Assembly (NCBI GenBank): GCA_947493695.1
Contig: CANLSF010000004.1
Location: forward strand, 186,001 to 250,000
Origin: an uncultured Kiloniellaceae bacterium
Lineage (GTDB): Bacteria > Pseudomonadota > Alphaproteobacteria > Kiloniellales > Kiloniellaceae
DNA: 64,000 bases
Direction: 5' to 3'
Shown here: piece after piece, positions 32,631-40,954 of the stretch
How positions within the stretch are numbered: the first letter of the stretch is position 1
How the letters are laid out: every line of letters begins with the position of its first letter
The notes under the pieces: model-generated
What the model was told of the DNA's origin: nothing
Databases searched by the model: none
The model's input: only the letters and a program-made list of their open reading frames with translations
Translations under genes and position numbers: made by a program

Positions 32631-33602
32631 ATGAGCAGCGAGAGCACAACAGCGGTCAAACCGGCTGAAAAGCGCGTCCGGCATCCGGAAAAGGCCCACA
32701 AGCCCGACAATCCGATTCAGCGTAAGCCGGCCTGGATCCGGGTCAAGGCGCCGACCTCCGAGACCTATCATGAGACCCGCAAGATCATGCGGGACAACAA
32801 TCTCTCGACGGTCTGCGAGGAAGCGGCTTGTCCGAACATCGGCGAGTGCTGGTCCAAACGCCACGCCACCATGATGATCATGGGCGAAATCTGTACCCGT
32901 GCCTGCGCCTTTTGTAACGTTGCAACCGGCAAGCCCAATGCCTTGGACCCCTTCGAACCCACCAATGTGGCGGCGGCGGTGGCCAAGCTGGGCCTTAAGC
33001 ACGTCGTGATCACCTCGGTCGACCGGGACGACCTGGACGACGGCGGCGCGGCCCACTTCGCCGAGGTGATCCGGGCGACCCGGGAAGTCTCGCCGGAAAC
33101 CACCATCGAGATCCTGACCCCCGACTTCCTGCGCAAAGAGGGCGCGCTGGAAGTTGTCGTCGCGGCCCGGCCCGACGTCTTCAACCACAACCTGGAGACT
33201 GTGCCCCGGCTTTACGGCGAAGTGCGCCCCGGCGCGCGCTATTTCCACAGCCTGCGTCTGCTGGATGAGGTCAAACGTCTCGACCCGACCATCTTCACCA
33301 AATCCGGCATCATGGTCGGCCTGGGCGAGGGCAAGGAAGAGGTTCTGCAGGTCATGGACGACCTTCGCTCCGCCGATGTGGACTTCATGACCATCGGCCA
33401 GTATCTGCAGCCGACACCCAAGCATCACGCGATCGACCGCTTCGTCACGCCCGACGAGTTCGGCCACTACAAGAAAATGGCGCTCTCCAAGGGCTTCCTG
33501 GTGGTGGCTTCCACGCCATTGACCCGCTCGTCCTATCACGCGGACGAGGACTTCGCGCAACTGCGTGTGGCCCGTGAGGAGAAACTGGCGGCGAACGGAT
33601 AA
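32631..33602 (+). CDS. lipA: Lipoyl synthase
   Basis: Radical SAM enzyme that inserts sulphur into octanoyl groups to make the lipoyl cofactor of PdhB and PdhC. 323 residues. Auxiliary cluster C62, C67, C73 ([12 protein letters not shown]), radical SAM cluster C88, C92, C95 (CTRACAFC), and the C-terminal RSSYHAD (299-305), whose serine ligates the auxiliary cluster. The last 128 nt (33475-33602) recur at 35587-35714 and the last 93 nt at 34428-34520, so this gene's 3' end appears to have been replaced by recombination. Confidence 0.97.
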
Positions 33603-33714
33603 AAACGGGTTCGCTTTGGGGGCTCAGAAGGACTTCCGCGGTCAGCGCAATTGGATCGAGTCCTATCGAGGTATTTTCCAGCCAAAGGCTGAAAATTTAG
33701 GGGGCGGCTTCAAA

Positions 33715-34416
33715 ATGCAAGACTGGATCGAAACGCCGCCTAGTCTCCAATATAACATCGATCGGTTTTTTGGATATCAGGACGCGTCGGAAGTACGGCG
33801 AACAGAACTCTCGCTAGATCGTCTGGTGAATTTTTTTGACGGATATATCTCGTTACACGGCATTTACAGCACGCAAGCCAGAACGCCTGATTGGAGGTCT
33901 GATGGTCTTAGATTCGGCACAAGATCATCAGATCTGGAAGAAAAATGGTGGCGTTCCTTTCCCGAAAACAAGAAGGCTTCGAGCCGGTGTCGTCTTTTTT
34001 TTGGAACGCCCTATCACGGTTTCCGTTGTGTTTCGCAACTTGGCGTTTTCCATGAAAGAAATCAAAAATGGTACGACCGCGACATTGATGGTCGTCATTT
34101 TTCCGCTTCCTGTTATTTCTCGAGGAAAATGTATGAGGCGATTAAGGGTTATTTTGAGCTGAGCGCGCATCCTTACATCGAAAACTTCGAAAACATTATC
34201 GTTCTTCCGATGCCGCACGCCTGCGAACCCGACGACACGCCTCTGAGCTCTACAAAACCACTCAATCCGGAGCTTCACATTCCACTGGATTCACTGGTCA
34301 TTGGCCACTTCAATTTCGAAAAGCAATGCATTGATTCCGCTTCTCTTTTTCAAGAGGAAACCGGCAAAAGAAAAAATCTCCCAGTAGTAAAAAGTAGTTC
34401 TACTGCCGTTTTATAG
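33715..34416 (+). CDS. Unrecognised protein, first cassette after lipA
   Basis: 234 residues from ATG 33715, with a G-rich Shine-Dalgarno-like stretch (GGGGGCGG) about 10 nt upstream. The frame is open back to 33565 inside lipA, so a TTG near 33616 is an alternative start. Aromatic-rich soluble protein (YNIDRFFGYQD, LFFGTPYHGFRCVSQLG, FSRKMYEAIKGYF) with several cysteines, no signal peptide or membrane helix. The sequence is richer in A+T than lipA, suggesting transfer. It sits exactly between the true lipA end and its second copy. No family recognised. Confidence 0.65.
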   Translation: MQDWIETPPSLQYNIDRFFGYQDASEVRRTELSLDRLVNFFDGYISLHGIYSTQARTPDWRSDGLRFGTRSSDLEEKWWRSFPENKKASSRCRLFFGTPYHGFRCVSQLGVFHERNQKWYDRDIDGRHFSASCYFSRKMYEAIKGYFELSAHPYIENFENIIVLPMPHACEPDDTPLSSTKPLNPELHIPLDSLVIGHFNFEKQCIDSASLFQEETGKRKNLPVVKSSSTAVL

Positions 34417-34427
34417 CCAGATTGCTC

Positions 34428-34520
34428 TCAACGCTGCTGACCCGCTCGTCCTATCACGCGGACGAGGGCTTCGCGCAGCTGCGTGTGGCCCGGGAGCAGA
34501 AGCTGGCGGCGAACGGGTAG
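34428..34520 (+). pseudogene. lipA: lipA 3'-end fragment, copy 2
   Basis: 93 nt encoding [20 protein letters not shown] and the rest of a LipA C-terminus, ending in TAG. In frame it differs from lipA at three residues over 30 and about 11-12 nt in total. The RSSYHAD motif is kept. There is no start or upstream LipA sequence. Interpreted as a displaced former lipA end. Confidence 0.85.
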
Positions 34521-34742
34521 GGCTGCGGGGCAGGCCGGGCCGTACAAATTAAGGTCGAATCCGTTAGAGAGCAGGATCCTGCGTTAAGGAAACCGTACGT
34601 TCGTTGACTCGGTGGCTAATGACCGGTTGGAGCCCAGACCTGCCACGCGTTAGTGGCCCAAATAATGGCAGAAATCTGATAGCTCCCATCTTTGAGAAAT
34701 GGTAACACTCGGCCATTGCCTTTCGTCTCCAATAGGTTGTGT

Positions 34743-35534
34743 ATGTCGCTGCAGGAAATTCTCTCGAAAGCTTCAAATTCGGAGCTCACTTTCTGTGTGG
34801 GCATTGATCCCACAGCAAACACGTTGTCGGCTTGGGGTTTGGACGACACTGCTCAGGGAGCAAAGAAGTTTGCGTTAACGATGCTTGAGGCTGCCAAAGA
34901 TACCGTTTTGTTGGTTAAGCCGCAGGTCGCCTACTTTGAGCGGTTTGGCGCAGAGGGTTACTCCGTTTTGACCGATGTCATCAAGGAAGCAAGGCAAATG
35001 GGATTGCTTGTGCTTGCCGATGCCAAACGTGGGGACATAGGGTCAACGATTGATGCCTACGCGGAGGCCTGGCTCGGGCAAAATGCGCCGATGCAAGTGG
35101 ATGCGATAACCGTCACGCCATACCTCGGGTTTGGCTCACTGACACCTCTGTTCGATAGAGCACATGACGCAGGGGCGTATGTCTTTGTGGTAACGCGTTC
35201 TTCAAATCCGGAAGGCACTTCATTGCAGGAACACGGAACACCCAAGGTCTGGCAAAGCATCCTCGAAAATATTGCTGACTGGGAAGAGTCCCGTGGCAAT
35301 AGGACAATAGGAGCCGTCGTCGGAGCCACAGTGCCGTCAGATTTGAAGTATGCGCTTGACCGCTTGCCGGAAGCCTATTTTCTTGCTCCTGGAATTGGCC
35401 AGCAGGGCGCGACTCTCGAGGATGTTTTCAACCTAACAACAGACCGCAAGAGGATCATCGTGAGCTCAAGCCGTGCCATTGCCGCTCATGGTCCAGATGT
35501 GTCTCGTATTCGTGCAGCGATACTTCAGAGATAG
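34743..35534 (+). CDS. pyrF: Orotidine 5'-phosphate decarboxylase, type 2
   Basis: Makes UMP from OMP. 263 residues from ATG 34743; a longer frame to 34692 lacks support. The catalytic D93-K95-D98 lies in LADAKRGDIGS, with FCVGIDPT at the start and LAPGIGQQGATLEDVF near the end. Length and motifs fit the longer type 2 enzymes common in actinobacteria, cyanobacteria and some proteobacteria rather than the short type 1. It stands alone, away from other pyrimidine genes, between two lipA 3'-end copies, so it looks acquired as a cassette. Confidence 0.88.
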   Translation: MSLQEILSKASNSELTFCVGIDPTANTLSAWGLDDTAQGAKKFALTMLEAAKDTVLLVKPQVAYFERFGAEGYSVLTDVIKEARQMGLLVLADAKRGDIGSTIDAYAEAWLGQNAPMQVDAITVTPYLGFGSLTPLFDRAHDAGAYVFVVTRSSNPEGTSLQEHGTPKVWQSILENIADWEESRGNRTIGAVVGATVPSDLKYALDRLPEAYFLAPGIGQQGATLEDVFNLTTDRKRIIVSSSRAIAAHGPDVSRIRAAILQR

Positions 35535-35998
35535 AATAACGAACGACGGTTTCGTCTGCAGAGAGTGACTCCGTGCTCTGCGGCGCAAATGGCGGTCTCC
35601 AAAGGCTTCCTGGTGGTGGCCTCGACGCCGTTGACCCGTTCCTCCTATCACACTGATGAGGACTTGGCGCAGCTGCGTGTGGCCCGGGAAGAGAAACTGG
35701 CGGCGAAGGGGTAAGCCGGATCATCTGTGTTACCGCAAGGGAGCGATTTCGCCTAAGTGCAGAAGGGCACTTCAAGGTGTGGTCCCATACGCCTGTCGTA
35801 TTTGTTCAGCGTAACGAATGCCCGGTTTGAGTCCAAAGAGATAGATGTGGCGTCTCGAACGAAGCGCCGCTTACGTCCAAATCATGTGCGTCAGTTTTGT
35901 GATCTGATTGTCGCGGTCAGCCTCTCTTTCGCGCAGCAACTCATGCCGGAGTTATCGAGACCGCCAGACGGGGCTGCGGCATGCGCCGCAAAAATTCT
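35535..35998. other. Intergenic region with lipA copy 3
   Basis: About 460 bp. It holds the 128-nt lipA remnant at 35587-35714. The remainder (35715-35998) has no supported gene or RNA. Confidence 0.5.
35587..35714 (+). pseudogene. lipA: lipA 3'-end fragment, copy 3
   Basis: 128 nt that align without gaps to lipA 33475-33602, starting at AAATGG and ending in TAA. It encodes [20 protein letters not shown] and the remaining C-terminus, with four or five amino-acid changes in 42. Most nucleotide changes are at third codon positions, which indicates it diverged while still a working lipA end. Homology begins abruptly at the left boundary. Confidence 0.9.
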
Positions 35999-40501: not shown

Positions 40502-40954
40502 ATGCCCACGCACGCTGAACGGCGCGTTCTGCCCTACACGCCGGAGCAACTCTATACCCTGGTCGCGGAAGTCGAACACTATCCGGAATTCCTGCCCTGG
40601 TGCGTGGCCGCGCGTATCCGCGAGCGCAAAGAGGATTTGATCACGGCGGACCTGGTGATTGGGTTTCGCATGATCCGCGAGCGCTTCACCAGCAAAGTCG
40701 GATTGGACCCAGTGGGCAAAAAGATCCACGTGACCTATGCCGAAGGGCCGTTCAAGTATCTGAACAACCACTGGCGCTTCGAGGATCATGCCGAGGGCTG
40801 CGTGATCGATTTCTACGTCGACTTCGAGTTCAAATCCAAACTGCTGCAGAAGATGATCGAAGCCCTGTTCCACGAGGCGGTCCGGCGCATGGTCGCGGCC
40901 TTTGAAACCCGCGCCGATGATCTCTATGGCCCCAAGCCACGGGTCGGCGGGTAG
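40502..40954 (+). CDS. Coq10/RatA family START-domain protein
   Basis: 150-residue ubiquinone-binding/RatA-like START-fold protein. Typical features: RRVLPYTPEQLYTLVAEVEH YPEFLPWC-type opening, EGPFKYLNNHWRF and the C-terminal FHEAVRRMVAAFETRA. In alphaproteobacteria it commonly follows lipA directly; here it is 6.9 kb away, which marks the insert. It likely helps quinone delivery in respiration rather than acting as a toxin. Confidence 0.92.
   Translation: MPTHAERRVLPYTPEQLYTLVAEVEHYPEFLPWCVAARIRERKEDLITADLVIGFRMIRERFTSKVGLDPVGKKIHVTYAEGPFKYLNNHWRFEDHAEGCVIDFYVDFEFKSKLLQKMIEALFHEAVRRMVAAFETRADDLYGPKPRVGG

Follow-up and report, generated by a model that had tools for sequence, protein, structure and literature searches.

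Stacked 3' ends of lipA in a Kiloniellaceae genome, best read as a record of serial gene acquisition

Results and discussion

The lipA array

How does a housekeeping gene come to be followed by further copies of its own 3' end, with one gene in front of each of them? This question is raised by a 64,000-nt stretch of the genome of an uncultured Kiloniellaceae bacterium (G000; GenBank assembly GCA_947493695.1, contig CANLSF010000004.1, positions 186,001 to 250,000), referred to here as the window; positions are window coordinates unless a contig or locus is named. The array is anchored in lipA (32631..33602, + strand), an open reading frame (ORF) matching NCBIfam NF004019/TIGR00510 and encoding a complete lipoyl synthase of 323 aa. 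G000 was compared mainly with its congeners G001, G002 and G003.

Sequence comparison with the own 3' end of lipA, taken as the reference and called copy 1 (33475..33602, +), revealed two displaced lipA ends downstream. Copy 2 (34428..34520, +) is identical to lipA at 82/93 nt and copy 3 (35587..35714, +) at 112/128 nt. Both align to the lipA end without gaps, on the same strand and in the same frame, and finish with a stop codon (TAG in copy 2, TAA in copy 3). The coordinates of the three ends given in the first-pass annotation of this DNA were correct, as was the statement that a single gene lies between successive copies, an orphan ORF and then a type-2 pyrF. The RSSYHAD motif, which it ascribed to both displaced ends, occurs in copy 2 only; copy 3 reads RSSYHTD.

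Chance is excluded as an explanation, since the best match to the lipA end other than the copies themselves reached only 58/128 nt in 450 kb of the same contig (mean 33, standard deviation 5.2). An assembly artefact is an unlikely source of the copies, because they have diverged and because one of the congeners has a case of its own. Measured from the stop codon, the displaced lipA ends start at differing distances, at 128 nt for copy 3, 123 nt for the displaced end of G003 and 83-94 nt for copy 2, whose left limit is soft (83 nt in comparison with lipA, 94 nt with copy 3 or G002). Hence no fixed attachment site is seen. Most likely, the displaced ends are inert scars.

The copies differ mainly at third codon positions. 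This applies to lipA and copy 3 (14 of 16 differences in 123 nt, binomial p 1.2e-5), to copy 2 and copy 3 (9 of 12 in 82 nt, p 0.004) and to lipA and copy 2 (5 of 7 in 82 nt, p 0.045). Most of the divergence therefore arose while the ends were functional, in agreement with the earlier view that the copies diverged as working ends.

Layouts in the congeners

The right-hand core neighbour of the interval behind lipA is a gene of the coq10/RatA family (40502..40954, +; NCBIfam match below the curated cut-off), with orthologues in G001-G003. The lipA-coq10 interval was compared across strains, a check which the first-pass annotation had proposed, and its layout varies among congeners: the four genus genomes have four different intervals. 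In G002 it measures 209 bp and holds neither an insert nor a displaced end, and in G001 it contains one GNAT gene. The interval of G003 comprises a TPR gene, a displaced lipA end of 123 nt, a TetR regulator, a small multidrug-resistance-type transporter, a zinc-finger protein and an M28 peptidase. The TPR gene, the lipA cargo of G003, stops 24 nt ahead of the displaced lipA end. Displaced lipA ends are thereby present in two of the four genus genomes (G000 and G003).

Among 57 other genomes searched in the order, 53 of which have a lipA tail, there was no convincing displaced one; in G052 two lipA-tail matches sit in two long frames. One tail was found in 118 of the 121 lipA loci scanned, many of which span only 1.5 kb beside lipA, and two tails in three loci (L001 from the window's genome, L002 and L031 both from G003). 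A second lipA tail in G053 was rejected as an identical 141-nt contig overlap, and a short one in G049 because it runs up to the contig end. A scan of 80 lipA neighbourhoods of named alphaproteobacteria (1.46 Mb) gave 23 rows, none convincing as a displaced end; judged by eye, they were lipoyl-domain paralogues, antisense mirrors, low-identity repeats or too short.

End replacement in G003 and the flank of copy 3

The lpd gene and the body of lipA in G003 group with G002 (bootstrap 100; 93-99% identity in windows). In the last 53 nt of lipA the identity to G002 drops to 73.6%, that to the window lipA is 90.6%, and G003 sides with G000 at 8 of 9 informative sites. The switch to a window-type end lies between -84 and -48, counted from the stop codon, and represents one homologous joint. 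At -48 it is supported by a Fisher p of about 0.001, when the window lipA or copy 3 is set against G002 (best of three cuts, uncorrected). The mosaic tests comprised nine comparisons at three cuts, all uncorrected; apart from the own end of G003 they were significant, more weakly, for W1 (p 0.006-0.03), and not significant for copy 2, copy 3 and the displaced end of G003. The gene-end replacement postulated earlier is thus visible in G003, where a G002-like lipA body carries a window-like end of about 48 nt.

Under a single crossover, the displaced end of G003 should resemble the donor on the upstream side of the crossover and the recipient on the downstream side. The displaced end behind the TPR gene has DFKALR and AREQ in common with the native end of G002, and in its last 48 nt it is nearest to G002, by a small margin (8 differences vs 9-15).

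In the window, copy 3 is followed by a non-coding flank (35716..35834, no strand assigned). These 119 nt are 92.4% identical (110/119) to the 119 nt after the complete lipA of G003. Between G000 and G003, colinear blocks are on average 80.2% identical and the adjacent lpd-lipA block 88.6%. The plain point is one of position: the end and flank that G003 has on lipA itself occur in the window at a displaced site. Since copy 3 keeps the flank found behind a complete lipA, the insertion of pyrF deleted nothing there, as additive single crossover predicts; this result stems from one insertion.

Proposed origin of the array

We propose, with a confidence that goes about halfway, that the three ends reflect serial gene acquisitions, in which re-closed fragments of related chromosomes entered by a single crossover in the lipA 3' end. 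A chromosome fragment of a related strain, reaching from inside the lipA 3' end through the next gene, would be taken up, which could occur by transformation or conjugation. End ligation would then turn it into a circle, and a single crossover of the RecA type would insert this circle within the 3' end of the recipient's lipA. The product would be a hybrid lipA with a fresh donor end, followed by the cargo gene and then, further downstream, by the old end, still joined to its intact flank. The order in the window would be copy 3 first, then a copy-2-type end together with pyrF, and then the present end together with the orphan ORF. The circle, the uptake route, the participation of RecA and this order of events are what we infer. 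A single crossover is favoured because it accounts for the old end being kept, for the flank being kept and for an attached end that comes from another lineage. The homologous segment is duplicated on both sides of each cargo in the window, and likewise at coq10 and a cupin-like gene of G003. Further points in its favour are the third-position bias, the end switch in G003, the similar scars at other genes, an illegitimate joint without overlap at the cupin-like gene and the precedent in Escherichia coli (PMC3240628).

Several observations weigh against this origin. With 75/82 nt identical, copy 2 is closest to the lipA of its own genome, all other ends reaching 70/82 or less; over its last 34 nt it tends towards G002, without statistical significance (p 0.089). 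Copy 3 matches its own lipA and that of G003 equally well (107/123 each), and here it is the flank that links it to G003. The test set in the first-pass annotation, whether the copies lie nearer to their own lipA or to that of other strains, thus has a divided answer, with copy 2 favouring local duplication. Trees of seven lipA tails reached supports of only 50-54. Upstream of -84, the displaced end of G003 resembles no sampled end, the segments compared being short. The excess identity of the copy 3 flank over the local value of 88.6% is modest, though well above the mean of 80.2%. Neither a donor genome with lipA next to the orphan ORF or to pyrF nor a circular form was found. All three lipA cargoes are single intact genes that end 10-52 nt ahead of the displaced end. 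This does not fit random fragments, many of which would be expected to break off within a gene; it could result from selection, from trimming at a later time or from a genuine cassette process. Evidence for competence is weak: ComEC domains occur in 4/4 genus genomes, and also in 10/14 control genomes. GTA_TIM and Ku were each found in 0/4 genus genomes and 1/14 controls. The serial single-crossover model of the first-pass annotation is right in outline, as judged from the end switch in G003 and the flank of copy 3, with a mixed result for copy 2.

Similar scars at other genes

In 450 kb of G000, 800 kb of G003 and 720 kb of G002, the tails of ORFs were compared with the 8-10 kb that follow them; only two of the scans reached the final 380 kb of G002. 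One scan, which filtered genes more strictly, missed lipA and the cupin-like gene of G003, both of which other scans showed. Rows that fell in antisense ORFs or in genes with lipoyl domains were taken to be mirror images or paralogues. One row in G003:C1, three of the four 3'-end rows in G002:C5 and three of four in G025 do not enter the account below, apart from the start of two ORFs in G025. The names cupin, PEP-CTERM, cpaA and prfC used in the following are our readings of the sequences.

In G003, coq10 itself has a displaced 3' end of 43 nt (35/43 identical, next best match 27/43), with an ArsR and an AHSA1-domain gene in between (L031 8314-8362 and 9326-9374). In G002 the displaced coq10 remnant is shorter (about L032 5279); where it breaks off, at L032 5279-5410, the sequence is self-complementary in stretches and may represent a small palindromic repeat element.

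The cupin-like gene of G003 is separated from its displaced tail by a PEP-CTERM-like gene. In G002 the order is full gene, displaced tail and PEP-CTERM-like gene; G001 has the cupin-like and PEP-CTERM-like genes and no extra tail. The PEP-CTERM-like gene had no match in the 12-kb stretch of G000 that was compared. At the junction in G003, the middle of the cupin-like gene abuts, with no overlap, the sequence that in G001 and G002 lies 3' of the PEP-CTERM-like gene. This joint, the only one that is readable, is illegitimate and has no microhomology. Trees of the cupin-like tails gave supports of 42-58 among the congener tails, with visible mosaicism, and did not single out a native tail. A 48-bp unit is present twice in tandem just ahead of the displaced cupin-like tail of G002 (L223, about 2490-2590). 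Directly behind that of G003 there are tandem repeats spaced by 66 nt (G003:C5:22471-28026, L171 onward), in a region with ORFs which we take to be Cas1-, Cas2- and Cas9-like.

In G025, which belongs to another family of the order and was scanned over 400 kb, an apparent prfC (C1:2558678-2560300) has an 84-nt displaced end (2561828-2561911; L283-L284) about 1.5 kb behind the gene, with small ORFs in between. It is identical at 73/84 nt, and 8 of the 11 differences are at third positions. The scar lengths thus range from 43 nt at coq10 through 83-128 nt at lipA and 84 nt at the apparent prfC to about 600-720 nt at the cupin-like gene, and the sequences are unrelated. The notion of lipA as a special target is not supported, because coq10, the cupin-like gene and the apparent prfC bear the same scar, and an element specific to lipA is not needed.

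When the flanks of gaps in genome comparisons were inspected, repeats were found at 3/43 gap sides for G003 and G002 (lipA, the cupin-like gene and a 51-nt repeat at a cpaA-like gene in G002) and at 4/111 sides for G000 and G003 (lipA in each genome, coq10 in G003 and one 25-nt match). Most insertions therefore leave no such scar. The 51-nt repeat (80%; G002:C5, about 403500-403800) is located at the 3' end of the cpaA-like gene and is perhaps a displaced end without cargo. A bias of the scars to 3' gene ends is suggested and not shown, since the scans also gave 5'-end rows, which were read as paralogues or mirror images.

Alternative explanations

Homology-facilitated illegitimate recombination (HFIR) of linear DNA is possible, if rather unlikely. 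Here, lipA would anchor one end of the fragment and the cargo end would be joined illegitimately within the recipient lipA end, leaving a remnant; this would explain an attached end from another lineage. One homologous joint (lipA of G003) and one illegitimate joint (the cupin-like gene of G003) are seen, and HFIR is the mechanism proposed for the immunity arrays of the type VI secretion system (T6SS) in Vibrio, the closest natural parallel (PMC5361080). However, HFIR generally deletes recipient DNA and usually involves 3-10 bp of microhomology (PMC3240628). Here the end is duplicated, the flank of copy 3 is intact and the cupin-like joint has no overlap. Furthermore, the displaced copy of G003 starts at -123, upstream of the switch in lipA, which is the wrong order for a simple linear exchange on one chromosome. 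We regard as unlikely that the lipA end was duplicated locally in tandem and that cargo was inserted later, with gene conversion or drift making the copies differ. The affinity of copy 2 agrees with it, as does the cupin-like gene of G002, whose extra tail nearly adjoins the full gene and is preceded by the tandem repeat. It is contradicted by the third-position bias between the copies, by copy 3 and its flank, which resemble G003 no less than the own lipA, and by the end switch in G003, and it requires separate insertions exactly between the copies.

Tandem units with gene-end copies between them are also what site-specific integration would give, i.e. the tandem accretion of island-like or cis-mobilisable units at an attachment site in the lipA 3' end, with the integrase lost or acting in trans. 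The conserved stretch around RSSYHAD could act as a core, and each lipA cargo is a single intact gene. We hold this to be improbable nevertheless, in view of the varying starts of the displaced lipA ends, with no constant core, and of the other lengths and unrelated sequences at coq10, the cupin-like gene and the apparent prfC. The earlier statement that no integrase is present applies to the seven interval proteins scanned with Pfam, none of which has an integrase domain, the rest of the genome not having been searched. Equally improbable in our view is that 3' ends of housekeeping genes serve as landing pads for dedicated single-gene cassettes, small circles made up of a gene end and exactly one intact gene. 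These would insert additively via an unrecognised recombinase, or via RecA after a processing cut just behind the stop codon. We entertain this reading because the spacing of 10-52 nt between cargo stop and displaced end, common to the orphan ORF, pyrF and the TPR gene, is not explained by random fragments. Finally, the arrangement might be old and fixed, or the block might have come in one piece from a single donor, in which case this lineage would not have built the stack step by step. Displaced lipA ends occur in half of the genus genomes and recombination in flanking genes can swap whole blocks; yet an old fixed arrangement is hard to reconcile with four different intervals in four congeners, one of only 209 bp, and we rate this explanation as very improbable, although a ready-made stack may have entered G000 in one step.

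Comparison with known systems

Integrative islands and cis-mobilisable elements in the 3' ends of genes or tRNAs use an integrase, their own or a borrowed one, and have a fixed core in common. They resemble the lipA array in their tandem units separated by copies of the gene 3' end and differ from it in that neither an integrase, among the interval proteins scanned, nor a fixed core is seen here. In the minimal mobile elements of Neisseria, variable genes are described as being swapped between conserved flanks, by replacement and not by stacking with displaced ends. Variable genes between two conserved genes and ordinary homologous recombination are common to both systems; the stacking with displaced ends distinguishes the array.

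In Escherichia coli, linear DNA with one homologous end was mostly re-closed and entered by single crossing-over (PMC3240628). In that work, 56 of 60 clones gave a sign of a duplicated gene end by polymerase chain reaction, 14 sequenced clones had duplications of 109-950 bp, and four appeared to be due to HFIR (PMC3240628). As in our case, the homologous gene end was partly duplicated and cargo was added without deletion, and the scars described here are of similar or smaller size. That system is a laboratory conjugation assay with plasmid DNA and one strain (PMC3240628), whereas the lipA scars are natural, stacked and include ends of other lineages.

The T6SS effector-immunity arrays of Vibrio cholerae are likewise stacks in which entry occurs by homology to the upstream gene and older genes are pushed downstream (PMC5361080). 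They retain immunity genes under selection, are anchored in a secretion effector and have been attributed, as a proposal, to HFIR (PMC5361080), whereas the anchor here is the housekeeping gene lipA and the whole old gene end is kept. Modules that we take to be older lie downstream at one anchor gene in the window as well; retained immunity genes are absent from it, the cargo being pyrF and an orphan without a PADLOC match. With HFIR in general (PMC3240628, PMC2884548) the scars share the combination of one homologous and one illegitimate joint and the fact that a mobile element is unnecessary. They differ in the duplicated end, as HFIR usually couples insertion with deletion (PMC3240628, PMC2884548). 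A search of open-licence papers with a few terms turned up no account of such stacked ends behind a housekeeping gene.

Cargo genes and remainder of the interval

The first cargo, an orphan ORF of 234 aa (33712..34416, +), has its stop codon 10-21 nt ahead of copy 2. It had no match in Pfam, PHROGs, NCBIfam or PADLOC and no relative among 384 other genomes of the class, plasmids, phages and viral contigs. Its predicted fold (mean pLDDT 29.5) is no usable model. The second cargo, the type-2 pyrF (34743..35534, +; TIGR02127, E 7e-78), stops 52 nt ahead of copy 3. It is an extra gene, as G000 has another pyrF at C1:1129645. Relatives at 74-77% were found in only three other genomes of 59 searched (G006, G011 and G015). 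These represent another genus of the same family and have the gene on contigs other than that of lipA.

On the 3' side of copy 3, the 119 non-coding nt are followed by a gene for an M81-family peptidase on the opposite strand, further small genes and the coq10/RatA-family gene.

Meaning of the array

The array is a real feature and a real evolutionary record, best read as the outcome of additive acquisitions that came one after another and were anchored in the 3' ends of genes. Insertion with such end scars appears to be a commonplace way for genes to be taken up, though one that has seldom been described. Displaced ends show in which order single genes were acquired, in which gene they were anchored and what kind of donor they came from, even where no mobile element took part. 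They would make a question testable in public genomes, namely which share of single-gene gain proceeds via additive single crossover as opposed to double crossover or HFIR.

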